From: a virus
IMG/VR virus record: IMGVR_UViG_3300027791_000009
Coordinates: 55,870-119,869 of that record
DNA: 64,000 nucleotides
Direction: 5' to 3' (one strand)
Part shown: positions 8,843 to 51,688 of the stretch, piece by piece
Layout of the letters: every line of letters begins with the position of its first letter
How positions within the stretch are numbered: the first letter of the stretch is position 1
Made by a program: the position numbers and the translations under genes
The notes under the pieces: model-generated
The model's input: the letters and a program-made list of their open reading frames with translations, nothing else
The model's database searches: none
What the model was told of the DNA's origin: nothing

Positions 8843-10144
8843 ATGGCTGTAAGACAGGTAACAGAAACAGATAGTTTAGATAAATTACGAATAGAATTTA
8901 ACGCATTAGCGTCCTCAGATTTTGGTGATATTGCCACTCTGGATGCTACTTTATCTGCTACTTCTGTAATTGGTGCTGTTAACGAAATCAATGGTATTGC
9001 AATTGCAGCTGCTGGTTTCACATTAACAGATGGAACGAATGTACAAGGTATTGCCTCTGGTAACACATTAACCGTAGCGAGTGGTACAGGTCTTACTGCA
9101 ACGGTATCAAATCCAGATACATTAACAATCGGATTAAATACAAACTTAACTGGTCTATCAACAATTGATGTTGCAACAACAGCTGAGATTGCGAACATAC
9201 AGATTGGTACTTCTTCAATTACTTCTGCAAGTGGTACAATTGATTTTGGTAACGAACAATTAAATACAACAGGTGGTATATCTGCCGGTGGTACACTTGT
9301 TGGTGCTGGATTAACAATCAATGGTGCTTCAATGCAATTTGAAGGTGCTACTCCTAATAGTTTTGAAACTACATTACGAGTAGACGACCCATCACAAGAT
9401 AATGTAATTACACTACCTGACGCTAGTGGTACTCTTATTACTTCTGGTGATACGAATACGGTTACACAAACTATGATAGCAGATAATGCTGTAAGTACTT
9501 CACAAATTGCTGATAACTCGGTTACGATTGCAAAACTATCAGGATTTAATTCTGCAACATTAACGGTTGACACTTTAGTTGCAAATACTATTACAGGTAC
9601 TGCTTCATTATCAAGTGCTGTAGATTTAACTACTGAAAATACTCAAAACGCAACAAGATATTTAACTTTTGCTGATAGTACTTCAGGTTCAAATGTTCTA
9701 AAAGCAGATTCAGGATTATATTACAATCCATCAACAAATATTTTAACAACAACTGCTACATCAGCAAGATATGCTGACTTGGCAGAAAAGTATAAATCTG
9801 ATAGAGAATATCCAGTAGGTACCGTCTTATGTATAGGTGGCACAGCTGAGGTAACTATATGTACAGAAAATCATTGCACAAAAGTTATTGGTGTTCAATC
9901 AGAAAAACCTGCCTTTATTATGAATGGCAGTTTAGAAGGTGTTACCTCTACGGTAGCAATGACAGGAAGAGTACCAGTAAGAGTATGTGGTCCTGTAAGA
10001 AAAGGCGATATGTTAGTATCTTGTAGTATTGCAGGATGTGCTAGAGCTGAAGCAGAACCAAGAAACGGTGCATTAATTGGAAAAAGTTTAGTCAATGACG
10101 ATTCTAACGAAGAGAGAGTTATAGAAGCTGTTGTTGGTAAATAA
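8843..10144 (+). CDS. Tail-fibre-like structural protein
   Basis: 433 residues. The middle is a repetitive fibre sequence: 'LTVDTLVANTITGTASLSSAVDL' style beta-prism repeats, and a 'FETTLRVDDPSQDNVITLPDASGTLI' segment near residues 170-195 that recurs in the fibre genes at 21518 and 23254. The last about 125 residues form a distinct folded domain (ADLAEKYKSDREYPVGTVLC, then VIGVQSEKPAFIMN, then GRVPVRVCGPVRKGDMLV), a C-terminal domain common to many marine phage fibres. It contains seven cysteines, unusual in a fibre. It begins two bases after the previous stop and is followed by a strong AAGGAG site for the accessory cluster. Confidence 0.75.
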   Translation: MAVRQVTETDSLDKLRIEFNALASSDFGDIATLDATLSATSVIGAVNEINGIAIAAAGFTLTDGTNVQGIASGNTLTVASGTGLTATVSNPDTLTIGLNTNLTGLSTIDVATTAEIANIQIGTSSITSASGTIDFGNEQLNTTGGISAGGTLVGAGLTINGASMQFEGATPNSFETTLRVDDPSQDNVITLPDASGTLITSGDTNTVTQTMIADNAVSTSQIADNSVTIAKLSGFNSATLTVDTLVANTITGTASLSSAVDLTTENTQNATRYLTFADSTSGSNVLKADSGLYYNPSTNILTTTATSARYADLAEKYKSDREYPVGTVLCIGGTAEVTICTENHCTKVIGVQSEKPAFIMNGSLEGVTSTVAMTGRVPVRVCGPVRKGDMLVSCSIAGCARAEAEPRNGALIGKSLVNDDSNEERVIEAVVGK

Positions 10145-10155: not shown

Positions 10156-10635
10156 ATGGACGAACAAACAATCTTATGGATTTCCAGATTAAAAGAAGAA
10201 ATCCAATCACACACTAGATACGAAGCAAGACAACTATTTTACATAGATGAAGAAGGACTTGACCGTGAGGTTAAAGACCATATGTCTTATGGAGAATGGA
10301 TAAGAGAGTACGATAGATTTAAAACTATTAAGGTGGAAGGCTTAGAAGATGTAGCCTGGTTAAAAGAAGTTTTAGACGAAGTAGTATTGAATATCACAGG
10401 AAAGAAAAGACAAGATATTCATTTATTTGTAAATCAGAAACCAGGTATTAGTTTTAAAGAACATAAAGATGATAAAGATGTTTACTTATATGTTGTCAAA
10501 GGCAAAAAGAAAGTATCTTTAGATGGTGTTATTAAACCAGTATATGATGATGAAGGAATATTCATAGAACAAGGTGTAAAACATTATGTTGAAAACGAAG
10601 CAGATACTTGGGGGTTAAGTATAGGAGTTATATAA
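10156..10635 (+). CDS. JmjC/cupin-like putative 2OG-Fe(II) oxygenase
   Basis: 159 residues, start chosen for the AAGGAGAT site nine bases upstream. Residues 93-159 resemble the double-stranded beta-helix of small JmjC/Cupin-type oxygenases: a 'PGISFKEHKDDKDVYLYVVKGKKKV' run places His103 and Asp105 as an HxD iron pair, and 'IEQGVKHYVEN' supplies His143 as the third ligand. In this family a 2-oxoglutarate-dependent enzyme hydroxylates a protein side chain. The N-terminal 90 residues are acidic and unrecognised. Its stop codon overlaps the ATG of the first radical SAM gene, so the two are probably translated together. A non-catalytic cupin is the alternative. Confidence 0.5.
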   Translation: MDEQTILWISRLKEEIQSHTRYEARQLFYIDEEGLDREVKDHMSYGEWIREYDRFKTIKVEGLEDVAWLKEVLDEVVLNITGKKRQDIHLFVNQKPGISFKEHKDDKDVYLYVVKGKKKVSLDGVIKPVYDDEGIFIEQGVKHYVENEADTWGLSIGVI

Positions 10636-11666
10636 TGAATTGGATGTTTTATTTAAAAACAACCGAAACCTGCAACTTGAATTGTAAACATTGTTTTACT
10701 TCAGGTTCAAATGGTCCTAAAGTCTATTGGAATCCAGATAAAACCATTAAGTGGTTACAAGATTTCAGAAAATACAATTTTCACAAACACGATACAGCAC
10801 ATTTAGAACTACACGGTGGCGAACCGTTTTTAGTTCCTGTGTCTGAAATGCAATATGTCTATGAGAACACAAAAGATTTGTGGATTCAACAATCAATGGG
10901 CATAACTTCTAACTTAACATTTAAACTAAAACAAGAACACATTGACTTCATTAAAGGTCCACTTAAAAATAGATGTGGAACTAGTTGGGATCCTAACATA
11001 AGATTTGCAAATGAGAAACAAGCAAACTTATGGCGTAAGAATGTAGAGACTTTAATTAGTGAAGGTGTTGATATTAAACTCTTCATATCAGTAACCAAAG
11101 ACACAATTAGAATTGAACCTATTGAATTACTTAAATGGGTTAAAGATTTAGGTGTAAAAGAAATGGCACTTGAAAGATTGACTGGAAATGGTAATGCAAA
11201 CTTGCATCCAGAGATATTTCCTAGAAATATAGAACAAGATAAGTGGTTTTTAAAAATGCACGAGCAATCTATTCAGTATAACACAAGAGATTGGTTTGAT
11301 AATGAGTTTTTTGAAACAATTTACTCAAAATTTGATACTGGTTCAACAAAAGAAGGCACTTTCTGCCGAGATTGTGAACAAAAACTATTTACACTTAACG
11401 CAACTGGCACAATAGGTGGTTGTCCTAATGCAGCTCCCGAGTTTAATTTTGGAACTATAGATGACCCTCTAGTAGAACTTATAAATAGTCCTAAGAGATT
11501 AGAAAATGTTGCTTGTGAAGTAGCAAGAAATCCTAAATGCTTTGAGTGTGAAGTATTTAAGTATTGTGGTGGCGATTGTCACCAATTAGCATGGCAAGAC
11601 GACATATGTGGCGCTCCTAAATCTCTTATGAAACACTTAAAAAAACAAAGTGAGGCGAAATGGTAA
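10635..11666 (+). CDS. Radical SAM enzyme with SPASM-like C-terminus (A)
   Basis: I place the start at 10635, in a TAATG overlap with the preceding gene and behind an AGGAG at 10623-10627, giving 343 residues; an ATG at 10608 has no ribosome site. Cys13-x3-Cys17-x2-Cys20 is the radical SAM cluster motif, and HGGEPF near residues 59-64 is the SAM-binding GGE motif. The C-terminus has two cysteine groups: GTFCRDCEQ with GGCPNA, then CFECEVFKYCGGDC...DICG, matching a SPASM domain that binds auxiliary iron-sulphur clusters. Such enzymes are typical maturases of ribosomally made peptides and of proteins (anaerobic sulfatase maturase type). The next gene, the CHxS-tailed protein, overlaps its end by seven bases, so it is a plausible substrate. 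Confidence 0.85.
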   Translation: MNWMFYLKTTETCNLNCKHCFTSGSNGPKVYWNPDKTIKWLQDFRKYNFHKHDTAHLELHGGEPFLVPVSEMQYVYENTKDLWIQQSMGITSNLTFKLKQEHIDFIKGPLKNRCGTSWDPNIRFANEKQANLWRKNVETLISEGVDIKLFISVTKDTIRIEPIELLKWVKDLGVKEMALERLTGNGNANLHPEIFPRNIEQDKWFLKMHEQSIQYNTRDWFDNEFFETIYSKFDTGSTKEGTFCRDCEQKLFTLNATGTIGGCPNAAPEFNFGTIDDPLVELINSPKRLENVACEVARNPKCFECEVFKYCGGDCHQLAWQDDICGAPKSLMKHLKKQSEAKW

Positions 11667-12433
11667 CTTTAAACAACCCGATAACAAGTCAAAATATAGT
11701 TGATAGATTTGAAGAACTGGTAACAGATGTAGCAGACCACCATATTGTATGGGGTACTGATAATCTACCAGGACACTCTTCATTTACTTCTGCTGATTTT
11801 GGTGGTGTTGTTGACGGATTTGAATTAACACTAACAGGTGTGACTGGAACTTATACAGCAGGTGAAACGGTTAACTCTACAATAACTGCAACAACTGGTA
11901 TCGTAGTTAGTTATTCTAGCAATGTATTAAAATTAAGAACAATTAATCCAGGTGCTGGTCAAACAGGATTCTTACAAAACGATATTATATCAGGCACTTC
12001 TTCAGGTGCTGTAGGTACGGTTAATACTTTAGCAGTAATAAGTGCTGTATCAATTGGTATCACAGGTTCTAATATCGGTAATGCAGGTTCAGTAATTACT
12101 GCAAACAATATTTACGGTACACTAAAAGCAGAAATGAATAATTATACTAATATCAAAAATACATACGCTATAGTTAGTATGACAGGTGCAGGAACACAAT
12201 ATTCGGATACACAAATTGCACACTTAACAACTGCACAAAGAACAACATTAAATCCATCACAACCTAGTAGTTTACAACCTGGTCAAACAATTGACGATAC
12301 AAATTTAGAATCGTTTATGTCGAGCCTTGCAAACGCATATTCTACTGAAAGAGGTAACACTTATACATTAACAAAAACTATATGTCATAGTAGCTGTCAT
12401 AGTAGTTGTCACGGAAGTAGAGGAAGAAGATAA
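11660..12433 (+). CDS. Virion-like protein with C-terminal Cys-His-x-Ser repeat; candidate radical SAM substrate
   Basis: 257 residues. The body is a Thr/Gly/Ser-rich, beta-rich structural sequence with units such as 'GTYTAGETVNSTITATTG' and 'ISGTSSGAVGTV' that recur in the baseplate and fibre proteins of this window. The last 16 residues are CHSSCHSSCHGSRGRR: three perfectly spaced Cys-His-x-Ser units (Cys242, 246, 250; His243, 247, 251) followed by a basic end. This resembles the His-Xaa-Ser tails of HxsA-type proteins, which accompany two radical SAM maturases. Here radical SAM genes lie immediately before and 1.8 kb after. It overlaps radical SAM gene A by seven bases and shares TAATG with the next gene. 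Modification of the tail is inference; metal binding by the unmodified tail is an alternative. Confidence 0.75.
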   Translation: MVTLNNPITSQNIVDRFEELVTDVADHHIVWGTDNLPGHSSFTSADFGGVVDGFELTLTGVTGTYTAGETVNSTITATTGIVVSYSSNVLKLRTINPGAGQTGFLQNDIISGTSSGAVGTVNTLAVISAVSIGITGSNIGNAGSVITANNIYGTLKAEMNNYTNIKNTYAIVSMTGAGTQYSDTQIAHLTTAQRTTLNPSQPSSLQPGQTIDDTNLESFMSSLANAYSTERGNTYTLTKTICHSSCHSSCHGSRGRR

Positions 12434-13098
12434 TGATTAATACTATTGTACCGATTGAATTGAAAGACTTAAAAAAATACTTTGAAGATAAGACAGAAAG
12501 TTATCTTATTGATTACGAAAACAGCACATTAAAAGGTGCTCAGTTTCTAACCTATTTAAGTAATTTAGATATACCTTGTGATATATTAAATATGGACGAA
12601 GAACTAATTAGTGAATATCTTAACACACAAATGTTAGTAAATATACCTAAATTAGAAAAAGAAATAATCGCTGTATTATTTGAACACAAGGGGTTGTCAA
12701 AGACAGATAAATATAAGAGTGTTATAGAAAAGAACAAAGAAATACTTGACAAGTGGGAAGGCAAATTAGAAAGTCTACCATTGTATAATATGTCAATCGT
12801 TGGTGAAGGTGCTTTTAATGAATTTGTTGAGAGTTATCCTAAAGACGAGACAGAAGATGTTAGAGGTATTAACTTTGTTTCATTATTAAAACACAAAGAA
12901 TTTTATAGTTATTATCAAATACAAAAAGAAGGTATTGTTAAGAACTATACGAAGTACTTTAAAGATTATATGTTTAAAGGTAAATCTTTATTTGAATATT
13001 GGGCGACAGAAAGTAATCCACTATTCTTAATGACTTGGGCAATTGCCGAAGGTAAATTTGATACAAAAGAATATTTAAAAGGTAAAGAGAAAAACTAA
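12433..13098 (+). CDS. Unknown protein of the radical SAM cluster
   Basis: 221 residues, Lys/Glu/Leu-rich, with no recognised domain and no membrane segment. It reads as a mainly helical soluble protein. The start codon overlaps the stop of the CHxS-tailed protein (TAATG), so the two should be made in matched amounts, which would suit a chaperone, a leader-recognition partner or an assembly factor of that protein. Those roles are inference from position only. Confidence 0.65.
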   Translation: MINTIVPIELKDLKKYFEDKTESYLIDYENSTLKGAQFLTYLSNLDIPCDILNMDEELISEYLNTQMLVNIPKLEKEIIAVLFEHKGLSKTDKYKSVIEKNKEILDKWEGKLESLPLYNMSIVGEGAFNEFVESYPKDETEDVRGINFVSLLKHKEFYSYYQIQKEGIVKNYTKYFKDYMFKGKSLFEYWATESNPLFLMTWAIAEGKFDTKEYLKGKEKN

Positions 13099-13099
13099 T

Positions 13100-14215
13100 A
13101 TGCTACACTTATTTAATAAAGTCTATTTAGCGTTTGACGATTCAATTGATTGTCATACAAACAGATATGTAATATCAGCAGAAACTGGTAATGAAATGCA
13201 CCAGGAACTGCAAACTACATACAGAGGAACTTTAATTAACTATTCACACAATGTTAATGCAATGGCAGGTAAGTATACTGACTTAACTGGTTTCTTTGAA
13301 GATGTAAAATTAAAACAAAGTACTCTAGGTACTAAAGTTATTATTTACTGCGATAGTGAAGCATACTTAAACTTATCAGTAACCTGGTTAAAAACTATGT
13401 TACCATTTGTTGACCAAACAGCAGTACAGAAGTTTTTAGATATTAATTTACACCACGAAAAAATTATTGCAAATACACAATTGCAACCTACTCACACGCT
13501 AGCGCTAACAAAAATTAATGCTGGTCTAGGAGATGTTGCAGGATATTTTAATGTATTACCTACACTTGATTTAGATAGAATTAAAGCTCTTAATTTAAAT
13601 TTCTCAATTGAATTATTATTAGGCGAATACTTTGCAGGTGCTGATACTCACCAAGCAAACTTATTGTCTACTTGGCATTTATTCTTAAAAAGATTTTATA
13701 AAGAAGTATTAACAGATAGTAGAGAAGGTGCTGCTCTAAATCTTTTGAATACTAATCAACAAACTGCATTAGGTTATACTAGTGATGATGTTGATTTAAA
13801 TAATGACAATCCATTTTCAGGTATTACACCATTAGCACCATTTGCTGACGAAGATGTATTTACGCAAAAACCTACTGCAAATGTAGGTGCTGTAAATATT
13901 GCAAACATTGACGGTCTTTCAACAGACAAACAAACTGCATTGAAAGCATTAATTAAAGACCTATATGATTTCCAAAACTCTCCGGATCCTGATTACTTTA
14001 TGAACCATTTAGATAAAGCTTGTGCTTCAAGTTTATCTTCTACTGACTTTGATACAATTATAACTGAAACCGTGAATAGTCCATCTAGTCTATCTTTTAT
14101 TCCTAGATTTGATATTGGAAATATTAATTATACATTTTTACAATATCTCTTCTCATTAAAGAAATCTAACGATACAGACAAACTAGGAAAATACAGACTA
14201 TTCGCAAACTCATAG
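13100..14215 (+). CDS. Unknown protein of the radical SAM cluster, possibly structural
   Basis: 371 residues starting two bases after the previous gene. The first 110 residues look folded and mixed (LFNKVYLAFDDSIDCHTNRYVI, then GTKVIIYCDSEAYLNL), the middle is helical, and the last third (FADEDVFTQKPTANVGAVNI onward) is less charged. No catalytic motif or known family is visible. It might be an adaptor joining the modified protein to the particle, or another substrate. A GGAG before 14224 separates it from radical SAM gene B. Confidence 0.6.
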   Translation: MLHLFNKVYLAFDDSIDCHTNRYVISAETGNEMHQELQTTYRGTLINYSHNVNAMAGKYTDLTGFFEDVKLKQSTLGTKVIIYCDSEAYLNLSVTWLKTMLPFVDQTAVQKFLDINLHHEKIIANTQLQPTHTLALTKINAGLGDVAGYFNVLPTLDLDRIKALNLNFSIELLLGEYFAGADTHQANLLSTWHLFLKRFYKEVLTDSREGAALNLLNTNQQTALGYTSDDVDLNNDNPFSGITPLAPFADEDVFTQKPTANVGAVNIANIDGLSTDKQTALKALIKDLYDFQNSPDPDYFMNHLDKACASSLSSTDFDTIITETVNSPSSLSFIPRFDIGNINYTFLQYLFSLKKSNDTDKLGKYRLFANS

Positions 14216-14223
14216 GAGTTTAA

Positions 14224-15276
14224 ATGCGAGAGTTTTTAATAGACCCCAAAAGAGACCCAGAGCAAGAGTACACTATTCATTTATTTGAATTTTGTAATTT
14301 GCGTTGTAATTTCTGTTGGCAGAACCACGACAATAAAATCGGTGTTGATAATGTGGTTGACAAACTTCCTTCTATAGAAAAATTTATCTCAAAAGAAATG
14401 TATATGAAGGTCACCTTTAATATTATGGGTGGCGAAGTCTTTGCACCTGCAATCTATAACAAAGATTTAAATGACGGATATAAACTTCTAGTAAAAGGCA
14501 TAAAAAAGATATGTCAAAAACACAATAAAGAATTTTCAATCAATTGGGTGTCTAACTTGGTTACCTCAGATGAAGGTAATGAACTTATTATGGACTTACT
14601 CACTTGGTCCAGAGAAGAAGATATACCTAGTAGACTTACAACAAGTTATGACCCACGAGGTAGATTTAATAAAAAAGACTTTGAGATATTTAAATCTAAT
14701 GTAGAATTTTGGGGTGATGAAGTAACCTGTTTTTCTTGTTTACTTACAAAGCCTAATATTAACTTTTATTTAAATGAAGGTGATGAATACTTTGACTATC
14801 TGTATAAACAAGGTAAGTATATTTACTTTGATTATTATATGCCAGATGAACACGCAAAGTTTAATATGCCTGGCGATGAACTATTATTAAAGTTTTTTAA
14901 ACATTGTGTTGACAAATATCCTAATGTTCATCCTGTTAGAGATTGGATATTTAACAAAAAGAATTATGCAAGTTGTAGAGTTTCAAAACTTGTATTAGCA
15001 GATGGTACATTATGTCAATGTGGTAACCTTGTACAAGAAGAACAAGATATAAGTCAATACAAGTCGCCCATTAAACCAAGAGACAATAGTATAATAGAAA
15101 ACTCTTTCCTAGAGAAGTATAATTGTAGTAGTTGTGAATTTTTAGATAGATGTACACTTGGCTGTTTTATGAACCATGATTATAGATACAAGGAGGAGTT
15201 GGATGAATGTGTTTACAAGCTTACGCACCGATATATCGAAGATGTACGAGTACAGCGAAACTATATCGCAAACTAA
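14224..15276 (+). CDS. Radical SAM enzyme with C-terminal cysteine clusters (B)
   Basis: 350 residues. Cys24-x3-Cys28-x2-Cys31 (FCNLRCNFCW) is the radical SAM motif and 'IMGGEVFAP' near residues 75-83 is the GGE-like SAM-binding motif. The C-terminus carries CRVSK, LCQCGN and CSSCEFLDRCTLGC followed by a later Cys, a SPASM/Twitch pattern for auxiliary clusters. It is only distantly similar to gene A outside these motifs, so the cluster was not made by a recent tandem duplication. The next gene starts inside it, 74 bases before its end. Peptide or protein modification is the likely role; the substrate is not known. Confidence 0.85.
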   Translation: MREFLIDPKRDPEQEYTIHLFEFCNLRCNFCWQNHDNKIGVDNVVDKLPSIEKFISKEMYMKVTFNIMGGEVFAPAIYNKDLNDGYKLLVKGIKKICQKHNKEFSINWVSNLVTSDEGNELIMDLLTWSREEDIPSRLTTSYDPRGRFNKKDFEIFKSNVEFWGDEVTCFSCLLTKPNINFYLNEGDEYFDYLYKQGKYIYFDYYMPDEHAKFNMPGDELLLKFFKHCVDKYPNVHPVRDWIFNKKNYASCRVSKLVLADGTLCQCGNLVQEEQDISQYKSPIKPRDNSIIENSFLEKYNCSSCEFLDRCTLGCFMNHDYRYKEELDECVYKLTHRYIEDVRVQRNYIAN

Positions 15277-15835
15277 ATTAGGCTATAATTTTCCTAAACA
15301 TATCGAAGTACAACTAGATTACTTTCCTGTTGAGAAACCATATCTTCCTAGAATAGATGGTAGACGAGCACATATGTTTTTATGGTTAGGCAAGAAAGAA
15401 GAGGATCCTGAACTATACGAGATTGCACAAAAAACAAAAGGTGAGAGACAATGGGTTCAAAATGGTACGCCTAGCACTTATATTAAGGGCGTAGGTATGT
15501 TTCATATCTATAATGAGTATGTTATAGTCGGTTCTTTAAAATATGCAGGATACATGAAGAACAGACCTCCAACAGAAAACAGAAAACTAATTAGACAAAT
15601 GTGGTGTGATACGATAAACATATTTAAAGGTAGAGATATATTATGTCCGTCTGGTACTTACTTTGATTGGTTACACCTGACAATGAATCAAATGAGAGCA
15701 CAGAAAGAACCATATCATAGAGAAATAATGTGGCAGTTTGGTTTTGACAAAGTTAAAGAAGGTAAACTAAAAGATTACTGGATTAGAAATAAAGAATCTA
15801 CTACAGGATTGAACTGGATAGGAAAATGGATTTAA
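15203..15835 (+). CDS. Unknown protein of the radical SAM cluster
   Basis: I place the start at 15203 because AGGAGG at 15191-15196 lies six bases upstream; the ORF could open at 15176 but no ribosome site supports that. The product is 210 residues, aromatic and basic, with a compact segment 'GTPSTYIKGVGMFHIYNEYVIVGSLKYAGYM' and a conserved-looking 'GTYFDWLHLTMNQMR'. I recognise no family or catalytic motif. It begins 74 bases inside radical SAM gene B and overlaps radical SAM gene C by ten bases, tying its expression to both; a partner or substrate-recognition subunit is possible. Confidence 0.65.
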   Translation: MNVFTSLRTDISKMYEYSETISQTKLGYNFPKHIEVQLDYFPVEKPYLPRIDGRRAHMFLWLGKKEEDPELYEIAQKTKGERQWVQNGTPSTYIKGVGMFHIYNEYVIVGSLKYAGYMKNRPPTENRKLIRQMWCDTINIFKGRDILCPSGTYFDWLHLTMNQMRAQKEPYHREIMWQFGFDKVKEGKLKDYWIRNKESTTGLNWIGKWI

Positions 15836-16920
15836 TAATTAAACCTACTGAACTTTGTAATTTCAAATGCTCATTTTGTTCTAGTACGCAGCTTACAGAT
15901 GAGAAAAAGAACTGGTTAAAACATGACCAGATATTTCGTTTTTTAGAAAGATTCCCAGAAACAAAAACAATCATAGTAAATGGTGGTGACCCATTAATGA
16001 TGGAACCTAATTACTATTGGAAGATTATTGATTGGTTAGATGAAAGAGAATATACTACTTCACTTGCATTAACGACAAACTTATGGCCGTTCTATAAGAA
16101 ACCTAGTAAGTGGGTTGACTTATTTAATAACGAAAGAGTTGGTATCACAACTTCTTTTCAATATGGTGGTGGTAGATTAAAAGGTGACTATTCTGAATTT
16201 ACAGAAGAGGACTTTTATAAGTGTTCAGACGCAATGTTAGAACATTGTGGTTATAGACCAGACTTTATATCCGTTATTACAAGAGAGAATGAACACAACG
16301 CAATAAAGAATGTTGAACTTGCAAAGAAGATGTCCGAACAGAAAATACCTGAAGGCACATTACATAACTTCTGGAGAGAAGAGAAGACAGGTGTAGAATG
16401 TAAATTGAATTATGCAATGGCAAGTGGCGAACAAAAAGAGCCGTTTTTGTTATCAGATATATATGAGAAGTATGTAGAGATTTATAAGGCAGGTCTAGCA
16501 CCTTGGGAGTTTAATACTAGACAGATGATGTTAGCAATAAATGATACTGCTACAAGTTGTCCGTTAAGTAGAAAATGTGATGAAGGTATAAGATGTTTAC
16601 AACCAGATGGTGACTACTATAGTTGTGGTGCATTTGGTGATGATAAAGACAAAGCGATAGACTTTGAAGAAGAAATGAAAGGTAAGTTTTTTACACCTTT
16701 ACAAGATGACTTAAATTTATCTACAATGAAGAAAAGTTGCTATAGTTGTCCTATGTTTAACATATGTAATGGTTGTAGAAAGACCGTGAAAGATTATAAA
16801 GAGGCAGGAGTTGTAGAGAAACATTGTGAGAAGATGAAAAGAATTGGAAAAGATATTTTGGTTGCAAATAATAAATCACATATAGAAATGACACCTTATG
16901 AGAGAGAATATGTTAGTTAA
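15826..16920 (+). CDS. Radical SAM enzyme with SPASM-like C-terminus (C)
   Basis: 364 residues. Cys11-x3-Cys15-x2-Cys18 (LCNFKCSFCSS) is the cluster motif, and 'VNGGDPLMM' near residues 51-59 is the GGD/E motif. Later cysteines occur as SCPLSRKCDEGIRCLQPDGDYYSCGAF and CYSCPMFNICNGC...KHC, a full SPASM arrangement. The 'D/E...PDG..Y.CG' context before the last cysteines is typical of SPASM proteins acting on peptides. It overlaps its upstream neighbour by ten bases, and the downstream oxygenase begins inside its last 23 bases, so an oxygenase and a radical SAM enzyme are again directly coupled, as at 10156-10635. Confidence 0.85.
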   Translation: MDLIIKPTELCNFKCSFCSSTQLTDEKKNWLKHDQIFRFLERFPETKTIIVNGGDPLMMEPNYYWKIIDWLDEREYTTSLALTTNLWPFYKKPSKWVDLFNNERVGITTSFQYGGGRLKGDYSEFTEEDFYKCSDAMLEHCGYRPDFISVITRENEHNAIKNVELAKKMSEQKIPEGTLHNFWREEKTGVECKLNYAMASGEQKEPFLLSDIYEKYVEIYKAGLAPWEFNTRQMMLAINDTATSCPLSRKCDEGIRCLQPDGDYYSCGAFGDDKDKAIDFEEEMKGKFFTPLQDDLNLSTMKKSCYSCPMFNICNGCRKTVKDYKEAGVVEKHCEKMKRIGKDILVANNKSHIEMTPYEREYVS

Positions 16921-17362
16921 GAATAATGTAATGACAAGTTTAGAACTCAATCATATGATTGCTGAACTAGGTAATCTAGGTAAAGAATATCCTATCTATG
17001 AGAAGAATGTTCACAAGAAATTACCAGACGACTGGAATTGGGTAGATAGTATTTGTAAATTAAATGTACCTGACATAAAACATTGTATTGTTAGATATGT
17101 TATTTCTGTAAATAGTAAAAACGAAGAAAAGAATATTATAGGTTTTCATACAGACAGCGATGTAAAAGGAGAGAAGACTATTATATTATATCTACAAGGT
17201 GATTTAAATAAAGGTGGACAAATACAAGTTGAAGATAAGACATATGACTTTAGACAAAACGCAATGTTTATTATGGACTCTCATTTAGTACATAGGGCAA
17301 TGCCTTATTGGGGAGAAAAGACAAGACTTGCAATTAAATGGAGATGGACAAGTGAGGGGTGA
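16898..17362 (+). CDS. 2OG-Fe(II) oxygenase (prolyl-4-hydroxylase-like)
   Basis: 154 residues counted from ATG 16898; in-frame ATGs at 16910 and 16931 are also possible because no site is decisive. The HxD...H...R pattern is clear: 'GFHTDSD' gives His84 and Asp86, 'LVHRAMPYWGEKTRLAIKWRW' gives His132 and the 2-oxoglutarate-binding Arg143. The intervening 'TIILYLQGDLNKGGQIQV' is the family's central beta hairpin. Such enzymes hydroxylate protein side chains or small substrates. It overlaps radical SAM C upstream and the next oxygenase downstream. Confidence 0.75.
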   Translation: MRENMLVKNNVMTSLELNHMIAELGNLGKEYPIYEKNVHKKLPDDWNWVDSICKLNVPDIKHCIVRYVISVNSKNEEKNIIGFHTDSDVKGEKTIILYLQGDLNKGGQIQVEDKTYDFRQNAMFIMDSHLVHRAMPYWGEKTRLAIKWRWTSEG

Positions 17363-17873
17363 ACACGATTTATCAAATCTGGTAATAAATGGAGTGTGGC
17401 CACATAAAGACCTTGCACCATTTAAATTCTTTGAAGGTATACAAATACCTTTTGTAGAAACAGATAAAGAGTATACGATTGCTGTACATACTGAAAAGGT
17501 AGCACACGCACTCGCCACAACCCACAAATATTTGGGTGATAAATATATTAGTAAGGTGTCTAGTAAATACGAATTACACGGACGACCAAACATTGTCAAT
17601 GGTGTAGACTATGAAAGTACACTATGGCACAATGACTTGAAAGAAGGAGCTAACATTGCTATACTAATGTACTTTACAAATGCCTGTAATGAAGAACAAG
17701 GTGGTTCTTTATCAGTAAGACATAAACAAACAAAGTCATTGTCTTGTTGGTTATATCCAGGTAAGAACGATTTAATATTTTTAAATCATAGTAAAGTATG
17801 GGAACACAAAGTTGGTAAATTTAAATTAATTAACAATGAACGAATTGTAGGATGTTTTAATTATAATATATGA
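17352..17873 (+). CDS. 2OG-Fe(II) oxygenase
   Basis: The frame opens at a TTG (17328), but I prefer GTG 17352, which has GGAG at 17340-17343 and overlaps the upstream gene by 11 bases; this gives 173 residues. The motif is 'LWHNDLKEG' (His93, Asp95), then 'NACNEEQGGSLSV', then 'VWEHKVGKFKLINNERIVGCF' supplying His152 and Arg164, the iron ligands and 2-oxoglutarate anchor. Phage enzymes of this shape are common in marine T4-like genomes, with targets mostly unknown. Two adjacent oxygenases of different sequence suggest different sites or substrates. Confidence 0.75.
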   Translation: MRGEHDLSNLVINGVWPHKDLAPFKFFEGIQIPFVETDKEYTIAVHTEKVAHALATTHKYLGDKYISKVSSKYELHGRPNIVNGVDYESTLWHNDLKEGANIAILMYFTNACNEEQGGSLSVRHKQTKSLSCWLYPGKNDLIFLNHSKVWEHKVGKFKLINNERIVGCFNYNI

Positions 17874-18430
17874 AAAATAAAAAATTTGAAAACGGCAGAA
17901 TACACGCCTCACAAGAACAAGATTTAGATTATTCAAATGGGTATCTAGCTCTATCAGTAAGTCCATTTGACAAAGACTTTGACATTGAAGTTGAGAAAGG
18001 TGTATTACCTCATTGCCATGAATTTATTAGAAAAGGTTTTCTTCCAATATCAAGTTGCGAAGGACATTTTACAAAGAAACACCATATGCCATTTTATATA
18101 ATGTTGGCGTTAGGTGGTAAAAACAAATTAGATAGAATAACAGATATCATTAATAAAACAAAACATATATCTGGTATATCATATAAAATAAAAGAACAAC
18201 AAGCAAATGTAAAGGGTGAACTATTAGAACGAGTAGATTACACTTTAGATAAAGAACAAGAGTATGCTGAACTGAATAGATTGTTTATGAGAAATCATAT
18301 TGACTATCATTATCTATGGATAGGACTATTTGAAAAAGAAACAATTTTAAGAAATATTTTGTTTAGTAGAAGTAAAAGAATGTTATTAAAGTCTATTGAG
18401 GAATTGAATTATGACGAAGCGGAAAATTAA
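17870..18430 (+). CDS. Unknown protein with a SSCEGH motif
   Basis: 186 residues, starting in an ATGA overlap with the preceding oxygenase. A central motif 'PHCHEFIRKGFLPISSCEGHF' (residues about 44-64) groups Cys and His residues in a way that could bind a metal or act as a nucleophile; it recalls the SSC motif of TYW3-like proteins, but the resemblance is too short to name a family. The C-terminal third is helical and basic. Function unknown. Confidence 0.6.
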   Translation: MKNKKFENGRIHASQEQDLDYSNGYLALSVSPFDKDFDIEVEKGVLPHCHEFIRKGFLPISSCEGHFTKKHHMPFYIMLALGGKNKLDRITDIINKTKHISGISYKIKEQQANVKGELLERVDYTLDKEQEYAELNRLFMRNHIDYHYLWIGLFEKETILRNILFSRSKRMLLKSIEELNYDEAEN

Positions 18431-19382
18431 TCTATCAATCAATCCATCTTATTTTTGTAATTTTAGATGTAATTGGTGTTATCTTACGCCTGACCAATTA
18501 GGTGATAATAAATGTATTGACCACTTTAAATTAAGTGAACTATTAAATGAAGTACAAACTCATAGAGACATAGAACACATTGATTTATATGGTGGTGAGA
18601 TAGGTGTATTAAAAGAAGACAACCTAGAAAAGATTACTAACGCAATTAAGATATATTACAAAGACAAGATTAATATAAACACAAACTTATCTATGGTAAG
18701 AAGTGAGTTTATGAATCCTGATTATTTTATAAGTGTTAGTTATGATATGGAGACCAGAGAGAAACACGAACAAGTTTATGATAATATGAGAACTTTGCCT
18801 GTTGAGTTTTCTGTTTTAATGTTGGCAACACCAGAAGTTATGAAAATATCAACACAAAGTATTTGGTCAAAGATGATTAAATTAGGTGTAGATAATAAAA
18901 ACTTTAAAGGATTTGAAATTAAACCTTATAGTACAAATCAAGCAAATCAATTAGGTGCGACACACGCTGACTTTGAAGACTTTATAATAAAGATGATAGA
19001 AGAATTTAAAAGTGTAAAAACAAGAGAAGGATATCAGCAAAATAAATTTGCATTTATTAATGAAGAGAACATAAAAGATTCTCTTAATCATCAATACAAC
19101 GCATATAGTGATGACCACTTATATATTACACCTAATGGTAAATTTGCTGTATTAGATTTTGATAAAGATGATAATGAGTATTTTTTAGAACTTGATAGTT
19201 TTGCTGATTACGAAGTATGGTGTCAAAAAGAGAAAGAACAAAATATTTCTGATATATGTCGTAAGTGTGAATATTTAGGTAGATGTTTAACTGAACACTA
19301 TAGATATGTTAAAACTCTAAAAGATGGTTGCAATGGATATAGGTATCTGTTAGATACTTATAGTTTTAGATATGGCAAATAG
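18411..19382 (+). CDS. Radical SAM enzyme with Twitch-like C-terminus (D)
   Basis: 323 residues. Cys16-x3-Cys20-x2-Cys23 (FCNFRCNWCYL) is the radical SAM motif, followed by 'DLYGGEIGVL' near residues 62-71, the SAM-binding GGE. The C-terminus has a shorter set of cysteines, ICRKCEYLGRC then DGCNGYRY, consistent with one auxiliary cluster. The radical SAM start lies 20 bases before the end of the previous gene. It is the last and shortest of the four enzymes. All four share only the core motifs, so each may do a separate chemical step. Confidence 0.85.
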   Translation: MTKRKINLSINPSYFCNFRCNWCYLTPDQLGDNKCIDHFKLSELLNEVQTHRDIEHIDLYGGEIGVLKEDNLEKITNAIKIYYKDKININTNLSMVRSEFMNPDYFISVSYDMETREKHEQVYDNMRTLPVEFSVLMLATPEVMKISTQSIWSKMIKLGVDNKNFKGFEIKPYSTNQANQLGATHADFEDFIIKMIEEFKSVKTREGYQQNKFAFINEENIKDSLNHQYNAYSDDHLYITPNGKFAVLDFDKDDNEYFLELDSFADYEVWCQKEKEQNISDICRKCEYLGRCLTEHYRYVKTLKDGCNGYRYLLDTYSFRYGK

Positions 19383-20166
19383 AGCGTTTCTTATAGGCAA
19401 TGGTCAAAGTAGAAAAGGTTTTAAATTTTCTACTATTCAAGGACGAGGTGTTATCTTAGGTTGTAATAATCTGTACAAAGATTTTGCACCTGACATTTTA
19501 GTTGCAATGGACCATCCTGTTATGCACAGCATTTATCATTCAGGTTATAGTTATACGGCTAAATGTTATTTTAGAGATTGGAATCCTGTACCACACGAAC
19601 ATTACGAGAATATGGTAAATGGTTTCTTTCCTGGGTATAGACATATAAGAGCAATTAGGAATTCAGGTTTACTTGTAGAAAATCAAAGAGTAGGTTCTAA
19701 TAGTTTTGTTTTGCACGGATACAATGATAAAGAAACAGGAAAGAATATGGTCAACATTAGTTGGTTGACAGGTGATAAAGTAAAAAGTTTTACAGATTTA
19801 GTTGACGGTGGTGACGAGTTAACTTGGGCAACAGGTCCTGCAAGTGGTTTTGTTGCTTGTAAAGAAGTAGCAGAATTGAAAGAAGTTTACCTAATAGGAC
19901 ACGACATATATAGTATGTCAAATAAATTTAATAACATATATGCTGGACAACCTTATTACAAGTCTGATAAACACCCTAGTCAATATTACTTACAAAATTG
20001 GATATTACAATGGCGTCAACTCTTCAAGTCGTATCATTCGGTAAAGTTTTATAAAGTAAATAGACAGAATATGTTAAATGTTAATATTCCGGAATGGAAT
20101 GAATGTAAGAATGTGGAGTATATAAGTTATGAGAGAATGGAAACTCAAACAAGAAGTATATCATAG
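19372..20166 (+). CDS. Putative DUF115/glycosyltransferase-like protein
   Basis: 264 residues, overlapping radical SAM D by 11 bases. It opens 'RAFLIGNGQSRKGF', a Rossmann-like GNG.S motif found in DUF115 (MptE-like) and some sialyltransferase-like proteins, followed by 'GVILGCNNLYKDFAPDILVAMDHPVM' with an acidic end to a beta strand, then 'ATGPASGFVACKEVAELKEVYLIGHDIY' near residues 150-178, matching the second half of the same fold. The family includes enzymes using nucleotide sugars or pterin substrates. Assignment is from motif shape only. Its place at the end of the cluster leaves open that the CHxS protein or another virion protein is also glycosylated. Confidence 0.5.
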   Translation: MANRAFLIGNGQSRKGFKFSTIQGRGVILGCNNLYKDFAPDILVAMDHPVMHSIYHSGYSYTAKCYFRDWNPVPHEHYENMVNGFFPGYRHIRAIRNSGLLVENQRVGSNSFVLHGYNDKETGKNMVNISWLTGDKVKSFTDLVDGGDELTWATGPASGFVACKEVAELKEVYLIGHDIYSMSNKFNNIYAGQPYYKSDKHPSQYYLQNWILQWRQLFKSYHSVKFYKVNRQNMLNVNIPEWNECKNVEYISYERMETQTRSIS

Positions 20167-20539
20167 ATTAAATCCTACTCATAAAGATACATTGAATGAT
20201 AAGGAGATATATCTTATATGGGAAGATAATGATATTATTCTTAATGCGAAAAGACATTGGGTAGAACAAGTCGAAAGATTTATCTATCCAGCAAAGAGTT
20301 ATTGTGTGGCGATATGTTATGCAAAGTGGATAGAGAGAGATTATGGTGATAAGTTTTACGATTTGTTAAACGACAAGGACTTGTTATTTGGCAATGACCC
20401 ATACTTTGAAGTATATAAAGGAAAGGAACACATTTATGACCCAATCATAAAAGCGTTTCCTAAAGATGAACAAATGGGAATGATACCTGATATTAGAGAC
20501 TATTATGAAAAAGAAATTAGATATGATGGCAAAATCTGA
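20129..20539 (+). CDS. Unknown acidic/aromatic protein
   Basis: 136 residues; it overlaps the previous gene by 38 bases and ends the accessory cluster. The sequence is rich in Asp, Lys and Tyr ('FIYPAKSYCVAICYAKWIERDYGDKFYDLLND'), with a WIERDYGD stretch, but no motif I can place. A late promoter follows directly, so it is probably the last gene of the accessory transcript. Confidence 0.55.
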   Translation: MREWKLKQEVYHRLNPTHKDTLNDKEIYLIWEDNDIILNAKRHWVEQVERFIYPAKSYCVAICYAKWIERDYGDKFYDLLNDKDLLFGNDPYFEVYKGKEHIYDPIIKAFPKDEQMGMIPDIRDYYEKEIRYDGKI

Positions 20540-20578: not shown

Positions 20579-20815
20579 ATGGCAATTAAGATAAATGGTA
20601 AAGATTATGATGAAGAGAAGTTTGACGATAGAACTAAAAATTATGTTATCGCTAGACAAGAGTTAGTACAGAATAAAGCGAGAGTTGAAGTTGAACTTGA
20701 AAAAATTGATGTGTTAGTTAGATACTACAATGCTAAGATTTGTGAATTTCTAGGTATTGATCCAACTGCTCCAAAAGAAGAAGAAACTCAAACAGAAGAA
20801 CCGAAAAAAGATTAA
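20579..20815 (+). CDS. Small protein, DUF6447-like
   Basis: 78 residues behind a strong AAGGAG site. It opens 'AIKINGKDYDEEKFDDRTKNYVIARQELVQNKARVEVELEKIDVL': a short 'ingkeYd' strand pair followed by one long helix, the layout of small proteins annotated DUF6447 in marine phages. The end is an acidic low-complexity tail. The function of that family is not known; its position among virion genes suggests a particle or assembly role. Confidence 0.55.
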   Translation: MAIKINGKDYDEEKFDDRTKNYVIARQELVQNKARVEVELEKIDVLVRYYNAKICEFLGIDPTAPKEEETQTEEPKKD

Positions 20816-20819: not shown

Positions 20820-21161
20820 ATGGCTGCAATAGCAAATCTAAGAATAGACCAAGGAACTACATTTTCCTCAAATATAACACTTGCAGGAAATGATGGTGCC
20901 GCTTGGGACCTAACAGGACATACCGTTGACGCTAAAATGGCAAAGGGGTATGAGAGTACAAAGACTAGGATAGCGATGTCTACGACCGTAGCAAACCCTG
21001 CTACAGGCATTATAACACTATCTTTGACTTCTGCTCAATCTAGTGCCTTGGATGCTCCAGCAAGATATGTTTATGATGTAGAGGTTACGAGAACTAGCGA
21101 TAGTGTAGTAACCAGGGTTATTGAAGGTATAATAACCGTTCGTCCTAATGTGACCGTTTAA
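20820..21161 (+). CDS. Virion protein with BppU-like beta domain
   Basis: 113 residues. The layout 'LRIDQGTTFSSNITL..DGAAWDLTGHTVDAKMAK' followed by 'ITLSLTSAQSSALDAPARYVYDVEVTR' and 'VIEGIITVRPNVT' matches the immunoglobulin-like N-terminal domain of the BppU baseplate/upper-fibre family, common as a stand-alone protein in marine T4-like phages. It follows the previous gene by four bases. Likely a small tail decoration or fibre-attachment protein. Confidence 0.6.
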   Translation: MAAIANLRIDQGTTFSSNITLAGNDGAAWDLTGHTVDAKMAKGYESTKTRIAMSTTVANPATGIITLSLTSAQSSALDAPARYVYDVEVTRTSDSVVTRVIEGIITVRPNVTV

Positions 21162-28291: not shown

Positions 28292-31200
28292 ATGGCAACA
28301 ACAAAAACTAGAATTGGTAATCTGTTCTTCAATTACCAGGGTGATTATTCGAGTACGAAGGCTTATATAAAAGATGATGTTGTATTACACAACAATTCTG
28401 ATTATATTTGCGTTAAAAACTCGTCTACTACAGGAGTAGCACCTGATACTGGAACAGAAGCTCAACAAAAAAGATATGCAAGGGTAACAATTGCTACATC
28501 AGCAACTACTGGTGGTAATGCTTATAAATGGGACGGTGAATCTACTTGGCCTCAAACAGAAGTACAATACAAAATTGGTGATACATTAGTATTATACCAA
28601 GACGGTAATGACTTTGATGATAATAAGATTGCATTTTCTAACTCTGCTACATCAAAAGAAACAAATTTATTCCACACAGATGTAACCTATATGCTAGACG
28701 GTAAGTCTGTTGGTGGTGGAACTGCAAGTGGTAACTACTTTAACTCTGGTACATTTAACAATGCTACTAAAAGAGAAATTAGAATAGAGATTACTGCTGA
28801 AACTCCAAAAGAAATCTATATCTTCAACTTTGATAATCCTTCTGCTACTTGGGGACCTAAAATGGTCGTTGCCGAAAACCAAGTATGGAAAGAAATCAGA
28901 CAATCATTTAAATGGAGAGGTGACCATAGTGAAGCTTCTATAGTTTACAATCCAAATGACTTAGTACATATTAATGTTCCTGTAGATAATGACTTTTCTA
29001 CAAACAATCAATATTCTGGAGACCAAATACAAAATATTAGAGCAACTTATGTCTGTTTGAGAGAACACACATCTGGTGTTGCAGGTACTTTACCTTGGGA
29101 CCAAGATACTGATACAGACGCAAATAAGTATTGGGAAAGAATTTCAGAAGAACATCAATTTGATGACGAAACAATTACAGATAGTGGTGCTGTTGCAACA
29201 ATAGACACTTCATCTACTTCTGCTTCTCCTGCTAGACAAGCAGGATTTTATCCTTTCGTAAATACTACAAATATTACTGCCGCTGCTGAAAATAGTGGTG
29301 CAGGAAGAACGAACGGTTATAATACACCACAGGTTAACATAACGGTCGAAGGTTACCAATCTGCTAAAACGGTTGGCAACTTCTCTACTGCACATTACAA
29401 AAGAAAACCTGGTATTTACAGAAACTTAACTCCAACTTCAACTTCAGGTGCTGGTTCAAACGCAACATTTGATGTAGAAGTAGACAACAACGGTGCTGTA
29501 ATTTCAGTCGCTGTTACCAAGAAATCACTTGGTGGTCAAATGGGAGGTTTAGGATATGCTGTTAACGAAACAATTACTTTGGCTGACGCACTTATAGGAG
29601 CTGGTGGTGCACCTGACTTTACTTTTGATGTGACAGCAATTGGTACTTGGGGAGCTCTTCAAATAGAAATCGCTAGAGACCAAAAAAGAGGAATGCAAAA
29701 CGCACAATGGGAAAATAATAACGAACCTGAATTACTTGGTGGAGAAAACAACGCTGCTGCTGATGTATTAGCTGTTGACGCACAAGTATTATATTCTAGT
29801 GCAGCTGTACAATTCTCTGTGGTAACTACACAGAAAAAAGCAAGAGGTTATCAAAACTTCTTTAGTGGAAACAGATTAGAAGCAATGGCATTATGTAATG
29901 AAAACGGACCTATCGGTGATGACCATCCGTTATACAGATTGCCTGGACAATTCCAACAAGCGAATTGTTATAACTGGCCTTGTTTCATTAACGGTAGAGG
30001 TTCAATTACAAGTTGGGGTTCAAACTCTAACGGTCAAAACGGATTAGAAACTGGTTCTGTTATGACTGGTGTTGGTATGGTATTTCCATTCCTTGACTGG
30101 TACAGAAGTACAGATAACGGTGGTAGTGGTATTCATACTACTCCTGATGGAGAACCACCAAAAGCAATTCAACTATTATCTGGATATGAAGTTGGTATGG
30201 CACTATTTAATAATGGTGAAATATACCATTGGGGTTACGGAGGTCACGGACAAAATGGTGACGCTGCTGATTCTAATAGAGGATATCCGACAAGACCTGG
30301 TGGAACATACCAAGAAATTTATCAAGCTTCTAACACTTCAACGCATACATTGAAAGATACAAGAATTAAAAGAATTTACATTACTAATTGGGGCGGAGAC
30401 AATAACACAAATACACACTCTGTTTATGCGTTAGATACTAACGGTGAACTATGGGCTTGGGGTTACAATGGATACGGTCAATTAGGACAAAACAATACAA
30501 CTAATTTAAATAGACCTACAAAAATTAATAAGACTACTTACTTCAATGGTAATAAGATTGACGCTTTCTGGACTGCTGGTGCAGGATACGCTTTCTGTTT
30601 TGCTTTAGATGTAACCGGTAAATTATATACTTGGGGTTATAATGGTTACGGTGTTTTAGGACAAGGTAACACCACTAACTTATCAGTACCAACTCAAATT
30701 CCAACTATCGTTTGGGATAACGGTGCTGCTAATCCTGGTAAGATTAAAAAATTATTAGTAGACTCGCAACAATCATATCAAAGATGTGCCATTCTTACTG
30801 AAAAAGGTAAGATATATTGGTGTGGAAGGAATGAATACGGTTGGGCTATGATGGGCAATACTACAGATGTAAGTACATTTACAATTATGTCTAATGGTCC
30901 AGGAAGTGGAACATATTCTGATTGTCAAAATATGTGGTTTACAGGTAACGGAAGATACGCAAGTTTCTGGACTAAAGATAGTACAGACTCTATTAAGTGC
31001 TGTGGTTACAATGGTAACTATGAACTAGGTATTGGTAACTCAACAAACCAAACTGCTGCTATTTCACCAAAATGGCAGATTAATGGAACTACAACTTCTG
31101 ACTTACATAACATTAAAGACATCGGTTGTAATAGTGAATATGGTAACCAATGGATGTGTAATGTATGGGTATTAACATATGACGGATTTATGTTTAATGT

Positions 31201-49243: not shown

Positions 49244-49262
49244 TAAAGAGGAGAAATAAAAA

Positions 49263-49790
49263 ATGGCAAACATTAATGACTTCAAAACTAAACTTGCTGG
49301 CGGTGGAGCTAGAGCAAACCAATTTAAGGTAACAATGCCTTTCCCTGGTTATGCACAAGTTGGTGGAGAAACAGAAGAACTAGCGTTCTTATGTCAAACG
49401 ACAAGCATACCTGCAATGTCTATTGGTACTACTACGGTTAACTTCCGTGGAAGACCTGTATATCTTGCAGCTGATAGAAACTTTGAACCTTGGAGTATTA
49501 CGGTACTTAACGATACAAACTTCAAATTAAGAGACGCTTTTGAAAGATGGCAAAATGGAATCAATAATATGTCTGATAACGAAGGATTAGTTAATCCAGT
49601 AGATTATCAAGTAGACGCATTTATTGACCATTTAGACAGAAATGGCTCTACTATTAAATCATACACTTTAAGAGGTTGTTTTCCAACTTCTATCGGTGGC
49701 ATTGATTTGAATATGGAACCAACAGAAGCAGTTGAAACATTTGAAGTGGCGTTTAGATACCTATTCTTTGAGGCAAGAACGACTACTTAA
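49263..49790 (+). CDS. 19: Tail tube protein gp19
   Basis: 175 residues, T4 gp19 size (163). 'INDFKTKLAGGGARANQFKVTMPFPGY' and 'LAFLCQTTSIPAMSIGTTTVNFRGRPVYLAADRNFEPWSITV' are the tube signatures. It stacks as rings to form the tail tube under gp18. A related protein is encoded at 57304. Confidence 0.95.
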   Translation: MANINDFKTKLAGGGARANQFKVTMPFPGYAQVGGETEELAFLCQTTSIPAMSIGTTTVNFRGRPVYLAADRNFEPWSITVLNDTNFKLRDAFERWQNGINNMSDNEGLVNPVDYQVDAFIDHLDRNGSTIKSYTLRGCFPTSIGGIDLNMEPTEAVETFEVAFRYLFFEARTTT

Positions 49791-49796
49791 TAGTTG

Positions 49797-49804
49797 AATA
49801 AATA
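49797..49804 (+). promoter_or_regulatory. Near-consensus late promoter AATAAATA
   Basis: One mismatch from the late box, in the gap before the portal gene and 33 bases before its ATG. Confidence 0.4.
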
Positions 49805-49837
49805 TATAATAAAAAGTAAACTTGTGAGGAAAATATA

Positions 49838-51355: not shown

Positions 51356-51377
51356 AAATATATAAGGAGAACATAAA

Positions 51378-51686
51378 ATGGCAGATAATGAAATAACACA
51401 AGTAGATACTTTTGTAGACCAATTAGCAAAAGGCAATAACGCAGAGGCCGGTGACGCTTTTAAAGGTGCTTTAAGAGATAAAGTCGGAGACGCATTAGAC
51501 ACAAGTAGAAAAGAATACGCTTCTTCTCTATTTCAAAGTGCAGCTAATGTAATGACTGGAGAGGTTAATGCTGAAGACCATTCCGATCCGAAACCTGAAA
51601 TTGCTTCACCTATTGGACAAAACGCTACAGAAGACGAAGTAAAACAAGCATTTAACCAGGCAACACCTGGTAACACAGGAGAATAA
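51378..51686 (+). CDS. Prohead core protein (gp67/gp68-like)
   Basis: 102 residues between portal and protease genes, where T4 has gp67 and gp68. 'TFVDQLAKGNNAEAGDAFKGALRDKVGDALDTSRKEYASSLF' is an amphipathic helix pattern typical of internal prohead core proteins, and the rest is acidic and flexible, consistent with later cleavage by gp21. Assignment to gp67 or gp68 is not secure. Confidence 0.6.
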   Translation: MADNEITQVDTFVDQLAKGNNAEAGDAFKGALRDKVGDALDTSRKEYASSLFQSAANVMTGEVNAEDHSDPKPEIASPIGQNATEDEVKQAFNQATPGNTGE

Positions 51687-51688
51687 AA

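Follow-up and report, generated by a model that had tools for sequence, protein, structure and literature searches.

Introduction

In the His-Xaa-Ser (Hxs) system of bacteria, the protein HxsA carries a repeated His-x-Ser-type motif in its C-terminal part. Haft and Basu (cited in PMC9062424) described the system, which is composed of HxsA, HxsB, HxsC and HxsD. Here, we report on a phage locus with a comparable layout, i.e., His-x-Ser-type repeats at the C-terminus of a protein encoded beside two or more radical S-adenosylmethionine (SAM) enzymes. It occupies positions 10156–20539 of a 64,000-nucleotide stretch (hereafter the window), which corresponds to bases 55870–119869 of the IMG/VR virus record IMGVR_UViG_3300027791_000009 (record length 119,869 bp). 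The locus encodes four radical SAM proteins (rSAM1 to rSAM4), a cupin and two 2-oxoglutarate (2OG)-type oxygenases together with a protein ending in a 17-residue Cys/His tag. Probably, this cassette is a phage-borne system similar to those for ribosomally synthesized and post-translationally modified peptides (RiPPs). Its target would be the CHxS tag of a virion protein associated with the tail fibre, and its chemistry and biological role are what we infer.

Radical SAM genes of phages have been noted before. Single genes are listed for the jumbo phages FLC6, S13 and phiRP12/31 (PMC8066314, PMC11898562, PMC5468394), and a pelagimyophage survey reported radical SAM gene cassettes which differ between host-recognition islands (PMC7029224). 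The accessible text of these four reports names no substrate, tag or pathway. FLC6 and S13 carry the system described here, and the cassettes of the pelagimyophages (PMC7029224) and of phiRP (PMC5468394) are probably of the same kind. A first-pass annotation, made from the nucleotides of the window alone, had proposed that a protein encoded by the phage is matured in several steps by a single pathway, and could match this pathway to no described system; in the open literature searched, we likewise found no published description of the tag, the enzyme set or the pathway.

Results

The cassette is a 10.4-kb, translationally coupled run of genes on the plus strand. Start and stop codons overlap nearly throughout 10156–20539, so that a single operon is a fair reading. 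Both these repeated overlaps and every open reading frame (ORF) of the first-pass annotation were recovered at the same positions. Only four radical SAM matches were obtained in the entire 119,869-bp record, all of them within the cassette.

The rSAM1 gene (10635–11666) overlaps both the stop codon of the cupin gene and the start of the gene encoding the candidate substrate, a presumably tail-fibre-associated virion protein (11660–12433) with a folded body (residues 1–240) and a disordered C-terminal tag. Its last 17 residues, ICHSSCHSSCHGSRGRR, are encoded at 12380–12430. Across 193 distinct tagged proteins, the consensus reads [VIL]CHxSCHx[SN]CHx[SAN]R[GS]RR-COOH, and the residues C, H, C, H, C, H, R, R and R are invariant in all 78 tagged proteins of a set seeded with rSAM1 and not selected for the tag. 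Synonymous codons are mixed at every invariant position, with Ser and Arg drawing on both of their codon families (AGY/TCN and AGR/CGN), which argues that the residues and not the DNA are conserved. With the tag removed, the 193 proteins fall into eight body clusters (132, 49, 4, 3, 2, 1, 1 and 1 members; BLASTP, E<1e-3) with no detectable similarity between clusters at that threshold. The candidate substrate is thus defined by its C-terminal 17-mer and not by its body. AlphaFold2 modelled the protein of the window with a mean predicted local distance difference test score (pLDDT) of 89.9 and a predicted template modelling score of 0.83, and the pLDDT of the tag alone drops to 55–61. No significant match of the body was found in the PDB. 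In the BFVD, the protein matched an unnamed 178-aa protein and the tagged protein of phage Atu_ph07, and part of its body matched structural or fibre proteins of marine T4-like phages.

Tag and enzymes were found to be coupled. A search of IMG/VR with rSAM1 returned 362 relatives, of which the best 80 were analysed: at 76 of these loci a nearby downstream ORF ends in the tag, and the remaining four contigs break off at most a few hundred bases from rSAM1, so that the tag was found at 76 of 76 testable loci. Each of them hence shows what is expected of a RiPP system, i.e., an operon that also encodes a candidate substrate whose conserved motif is open to modification. Of the rSAM1-seeded loci, 58 have 6 kb or more of sequence after the tag, and every one of these contains rSAM1, rSAM2, rSAM3, the tagged protein and two further proteins, referred to as the PHROG_20767 protein and U371; rSAM4 occurs in 53 and the 2OG oxygenase OG2 in 50 of them. 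Pooling all searches gave 78 cassettes for which no less than 9 kb of downstream and 2.5 kb of upstream sequence was available, with rSAM1 in 78, rSAM2 in 78, rSAM3 in 77 and rSAM4 in 72. Four radical SAM genes per cassette are commonest (41/78), followed by six (22/78). At one locus of Burkholderia phage SURPRISE13 (L007, 18406–19583), two genes annotated as dihydrofolate reductase lie between rSAM2 and rSAM3.

As these pools are partly enzyme-selected, independent tests were run from the tag alone and from rSAM4 and rSAM3. A DNA pattern of the tag (about 44 bits) hit more than 119 stretches in viral contigs, where by our own estimate fewer than one is expected. When 30 large tag-seeded records were searched as a whole, rSAM1 was present in all 30 and rSAM3 in 28, and in the two others the contig stops 2–3 kb past rSAM1. 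Conversely, the tag was found in 46 of 48 large rSAM4-seeded records, with a 47th carrying the degenerate form CHTSCHSNCNCNRGRR, and in 19 of 24 rSAM3-seeded records; a reversed control pattern gave no match in these 72 records. The first-pass annotation had expected at least two of the radical SAM genes to recur with the tagged protein in other phages, which is what these searches returned, and its converse, i.e., radical SAM genes occurring independently of the rest, was not borne out: tag and enzymes are strictly coupled.

Seven records of cultured phages contain rSAM1 homologues with 41–51% identity, namely Atu_ph07 (twice), Phosso, the Burkholderia phages FLC6 and S13/SURPRISE13, FLC8 and the Pseudomonas phage DT01. 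In Phosso, Atu_ph07, SURPRISE13 and DT01, a cupin-type gene lies upstream and the tagged protein follows next downstream; the bodies of these downstream proteins differ, and their C-termini read CHxSCHxSCHxSRxRR or a close variant. The coupling is phage-wide, and the system is carried by many large tailed phages. The coupling persists even where substrate, gene order or phage lineage differ, an argument for a single functional system. A bacterial origin of the tag was also considered and rejected: among 84,980 bacterial and archaeal species genomes the pattern occurred in just ten stretches, nine of them in metagenome bins (five with other cassette genes adjoining the tag) and one, in a Pseudoalteromonas assembly, being a chance antisense match (L209).

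Variation of the substrate was seen at several loci. A second architecture consists of a tandem pair of tagged proteins of 124–140 aa, which at one locus (L153) directly succeed a fibre gene; the enzyme set that comes after them is unchanged in content but differently ordered. In some cassettes of the single type, two large tagged proteins with bodies from separate clusters are encoded consecutively, as at L083 (11088–12601, 255 and 247 aa) and L155 (11753–13467, 309 and 260 aa). At L094 (10436–10975), L100 (1562–2113) and L237 (5471–6010), the third repeat is CHCA or CNCN, adding a fourth Cys, which is possibly a natural variant of the modification site. Furthermore, a 151-kb record (G054, the record of L162 and L326) holds two rSAM1 genes and three tags at 29116–30746 and 48460–59767, apparently a single-substrate and a tandem-substrate system side by side.

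Evidence for the location of the tagged protein comes from Atu_ph07, in which the virion proteins identified by mass spectrometry cluster at coding sequences (CDS) 170–215 (PMC6102473). CDS 170, the exact start of this cluster, is the tagged protein, and CDS 165–169, including rSAM2 and rSAM3, lie outside. The portal is gp198 in both sources, which fits the same gene numbering. Detection of gp170, the C-terminal peptide of which lies around CHSSCHASCHNSR, is read from the cluster boundary and strongly suggests, short of proof, that the virion contains the tagged protein.

All four enzymes contain the core CxxxCxxC motif, accompanied by GGE in rSAM1, rSAM2 and rSAM4 and by GGD in rSAM3, and the core cysteines are retained in 93–100% of members (142–190 distinct homologues per enzyme). 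The same homologues give eight auxiliary cysteines for rSAM1, seven for rSAM2, eight for rSAM3 and four for rSAM4. By this pattern, rSAM1, rSAM2 and rSAM3 belong to the SPASM enzymes, but rSAM4 does not: it keeps just four auxiliary cysteines and hence is predicted to hold one cluster. The initial assignment of four SPASM-type enzymes accordingly stands for the CxxxCxxC and GGE/GGD motifs and the C-terminal cysteines of all four, but the full two-cluster SPASM arrangement is limited to rSAM1–3. With the SPASM model TIGR04085 (cut-off 27 bits), rSAM1 scored above (33.3) and rSAM3 (24.5) and rSAM2 (19.8) below the threshold, and the NCBIfam scan gave no match of this model to rSAM4.

The solved structures nearest to rSAM1 (three core and eight auxiliary cysteines, 190 homologues) are 8vpo, 5wgg and anaerobic sulfatase maturase. 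In rSAM2 (14224–15276), the seven cysteines of the SPASM pattern are kept in at least 99% of 151 homologues; the protein matches phrog_1802 (9e-41), which PHROGs labels merely as "radical SAM domain-containing protein". rSAM3 (15826–16920, full SPASM, 158 homologues) matches PF04055 with 29.6 bits against a cut-off of 29.5. The four auxiliary cysteines of rSAM4 (18411–19382) are invariant in 142 homologues, and its nearest solved structure is the peptide epimerase YydG (E=2.8e-6), aligned over the N-terminal barrel part only (residues 7–135). The closest enzyme relatives are DynA, anaerobic sulfatase maturase and PapB for rSAM1, DynA for rSAM3 and YydG for rSAM4. The best-matching families are peptide- or protein-modifying SPASM enzymes; enzymes of a small-molecule pathway, which the first-pass annotation had named as the best matches that would speak against its proposal, were not what was found. 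A viperin-like or defence function was likewise rejected, with rSAM1 reaching 35.3 bits against the cut-off of 180 for NF038283 and PADLOC pVip matches covering the radical SAM core alone.

In a maximum-likelihood tree of 67 radical SAM proteins (midpoint root, no outgroup), rSAM1, rSAM2, rSAM3 and rSAM4 form four separate clades, each with 100/99 support and each including the pelagiphage-like window as well as jumbo phages of the T4-like and of the phiKZ-like kind; we read the four as one ancient set. The additional enzymes rSAM5 and rSAM6 group apart and are more divergent. In Sinorhizobium phage Phosso (L005, 23591–24508), another radical SAM gene, located about 4 kb past the cassette beside an HNH endonuclease, groups with rSAM2.

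Apart from the radical SAM enzymes, the core of the cassette consists of the cupin, the PHROG_20767 protein and U371. The counts out of 77 given below refer to cassettes with a long tagged protein, and those out of 78 add one with a short tagged protein, all with at least 9 kb downstream. The cupin with its HxD...H motif (10156–10635), the first gene, exceeds the threshold of Pfam Cupin_2 (30.9 bits, cut-off 27.2) and is present in 78/78 cassettes. The PHROG_20767 protein (12433–13098; phrog_20767, 5e-57) is a core accessory factor, likewise found in 78/78; its AlphaFold2 model (pLDDT 91.8) gave no fold match in the PDB, and we regard it as a candidate substrate-binding or scaffold protein. 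U371 (13100–14215), present in 74/77 cassettes, has no Pfam or PHROG match and one weak NCBIfam match far below its cut-off.

The first-pass annotation had counted three HxD...H oxygenases. This holds for the cupin, just misses the threshold for OG2 (17352–17873), a common 2OG-Fe(II) oxygenase resembling 2OG-FeII_Oxy_3 (PF13640, E=1.9e-5, 25.9 bits, cut-off 27; 48/77), and is tentative for OG1 (16898–17362), a small 2OG-type accessory protein with an HTD...H...R pattern and a weak Asp_Arg_Hydrox match (E=0.016; 7/77). OG1 falls into phrog_274, labelled "DNA endonuclease V", a label that gp034 and gp039 of phage HTVC008M also bear; for OG1 it looks like a wrong transfer. The remaining genes are accessory: U219 (15176–15835; 23/77), given as the longest ORF with a true start probably further downstream, U186 (17870–18430; 15/77), U264 (19372–20166; phrog_30607, 4e-45; 9/77) and the common U136 (20129–20539; phrog_20737, 3e-38; 66/77), the last gene of the cassette.

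With respect to the genomic setting, a match of the prohead protease family PF03420 agrees with the earlier assignment to a T4-like phage, and VrlC of the window phage is closest to those of the Pelagibacter phages Mosig (53.5%) and HTVC008M (45.9%). HTVC008M is cassette-free at this locus, with the order VrlC, small structural protein, fibre, gp060 and gp061. The flanks of the window at 8843–10144, 20579–20815 and 20820–21161 match HTVC008M gp059, gp060 and gp061, respectively, with 51% for gp061 and, along a short stretch, 45% for gp060. As these genes adjoin in HTVC008M, the cassette is an insertion of exactly 10156–20539 into a fibre locus. The flanking fibre-type protein (8843–10144, plus strand), outside the insertion, matches phrog_19602 ("tail fiber protein", E=2.8e-5), and its C-terminal domain recurs in gp176 of Atu_ph07 with 42% identity. 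At 78 of 114 distinct loci, such a fibre-type C-terminal domain ends at most 4.5 kb upstream of the tag. Curli genes are reported to be widespread among marine pelagimyophages; a CsgG (curli) match was not found in the whole record G000, which may be incomplete.

Discussion

The enzyme set always accompanies one protein with the same 17-residue Cys/His tag and thus probably rebuilds this tag on the virus particle. The single multi-step pathway suggested at the outset gains support from the very strong co-occurrence of tag and enzymes, and the modification of the tag itself, with its reactions, their order and their purpose, is what we infer. In the proposed sequence of events, the tagged protein would be made with a flexible C-terminus of three CHxS repeats followed by RxRR, which may serve as recognition sequence, as modified core or as both; most economically, it would be docking site and core together. 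The four radical SAM enzymes, the cupin and usually a 2OG oxygenase would act on it; docking or scaffolding would be the likely part of the PHROG_20767 protein and U371. The SPASM enzymes could introduce cross-links or other C–H functionalizations at Cys, His or Ser, and the oxygenases could contribute hydroxylations. The H-x-S spacing resembles three-residue cyclophane motifs, which we take as a lead only. The modified tip would then be built into the particle, where it would probably contact the host surface, be it that cross-links turn it into a stiff adhesive cap or that it binds metal, a purpose suggested by the location at fibre genes and the virion association. A more far-reaching version, to which we give even chances, would see here a virus-specific protein maturation without cellular counterpart, in which four to six radical SAM enzymes make a heavily cross-linked CHxSCHxSCHxSRxRR tip for attachment to, or breach of, the host envelope. 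The tagged protein would then be a structural protein of the virion modified by radical SAM enzymes, with carriers in many lineages of tailed phages.

Several points weigh against the maturation of the tag as first outlined. Since all NCBIfam matches to known maturases lie far below their cut-offs, no specific reaction can be named. Five of the 24 rSAM3-seeded records lack an exact tag, some of them being cut near the locus. An RRE (PqqD-like) domain, which is common but not required in RiPP systems, gave no Pfam match among the ten cassette proteins scanned, and the PHROG_20767 protein was rejected as a candidate for it for want of a fold match. Moreover, the tag could be a recognition element for modifications at other residues, or it could itself be a motif for metal binding.

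The latter option can be developed into an alternative in which the tag is not covalently modified and the enzymes load, protect or reduce a metal-binding fibre tip or build its metal cofactor. Regularly spaced Cys-His repeats at a flexible C-terminus and the Fe-S clusters of SPASM enzymes would suit such a function, and metal-bound fibre tips are known from the iron sites of T4 gp37. We nevertheless consider it very unlikely, as four separately conserved radical SAM clades plus oxygenases far exceed the needs of metal loading and the nearest enzyme relatives modify peptides. It is about as unlikely that the tag acts as a leader-type recognition sequence only, with the enzymes modifying the body of the fibre protein or the neighbouring fibre and the RxRR end perhaps being clipped later. 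Leader recognition is usual in RiPPs, the tag is the sole feature common to the unrelated bodies, and the neighbouring fibre has a conserved C-terminal domain at many loci; however, the body clusters share no conserved residues that could form a common core, and the tag itself is rich in residues which SPASM enzymes use. Most improbable is a target other than the tag, such as a small molecule, a component of the host surface or a DNA base that the enzymes would make or modify, with the tagged protein as a neighbour that has its own role. Host-recognition islands of phages do often hold glycosyltransferases and other surface-modifying genes (PMC7029224), and the label of phrog_1802 names a radical SAM domain only; however, tag and enzymes stay together in unrelated phage lineages, with unrelated substrate bodies and in differing gene orders, and no small-molecule biosynthesis model exceeded its cut-off in the NCBIfam scan of ten cassette proteins.

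If maturation of the tag proves true, it would explain why phages keep at least 10 kb of oxygen-sensitive enzymes beside their fibre genes, and it would open a class of natural, genetically tagged and enzymatically rebuilt adhesins. Maturation of a structural virion protein by radical SAM enzymes has, as far as we found, no published precedent. The carriers are widespread phages, including pelagimyophages and T4-like and phiKZ-like jumbo phages, and those in culture (Atu_ph07, FLC6/FLC8/S13, DT01 and Phosso) make the system accessible to ordinary mass spectrometry. In addition, the short C-terminal tag may be portable to other proteins.

Among known systems, the SPASM maturases, e.g., DynA of dynobactin, PapB, the SCIFF maturase and anaerobic sulfatase maturase, share the core fold and the SPASM cysteines with the cassette enzymes, and in both cases the operon also holds the gene of a substrate (here a candidate), either short or a protein. 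The cassette enzymes, however, miss all equivalog cut-offs widely, several different radical SAM enzymes are present per system, and in place of a leader–core peptide the candidate substrate is a folded protein of full size which bears the tag at its C-terminus. In comparison with the peptide epimerase YydG/EpeE, all four auxiliary cysteines of rSAM4 would be needed for its one cluster, which would leave no obvious spare Cys as hydrogen donor.

The likeness to the Hxs system extends to distant profile similarity of rSAM1 to HxsB (1.1e-7) and of rSAM3 to HxsC (4.5e-7). Judged by the NCBIfam models TIGR03979, TIGR03978, TIGR03977 and TIGR03976, membership was nonetheless rejected: the scores of 31.1 bits for rSAM1 against HxsB (TIGR03978, cut-off 370) and of 29 bits for rSAM3 against HxsC (TIGR03977, cut-off 267.9) miss the cut-offs by an order of magnitude, and neither HxsA nor HxsD was matched by the ten cassette proteins scanned, which included the tagged one and left out those at 17352, 17870, 19372 and 20129. 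Unlike in Hxs, every His of the cassette tag is preceded by a Cys and the tag always closes with RxRR, and four conserved radical SAM proteins are combined with a cupin and a 2OG oxygenase, in phages. The cassette works like a RiPP or Hxs system, yet by the tests made it is not a member of Hxs, and it may well merit a separate class.

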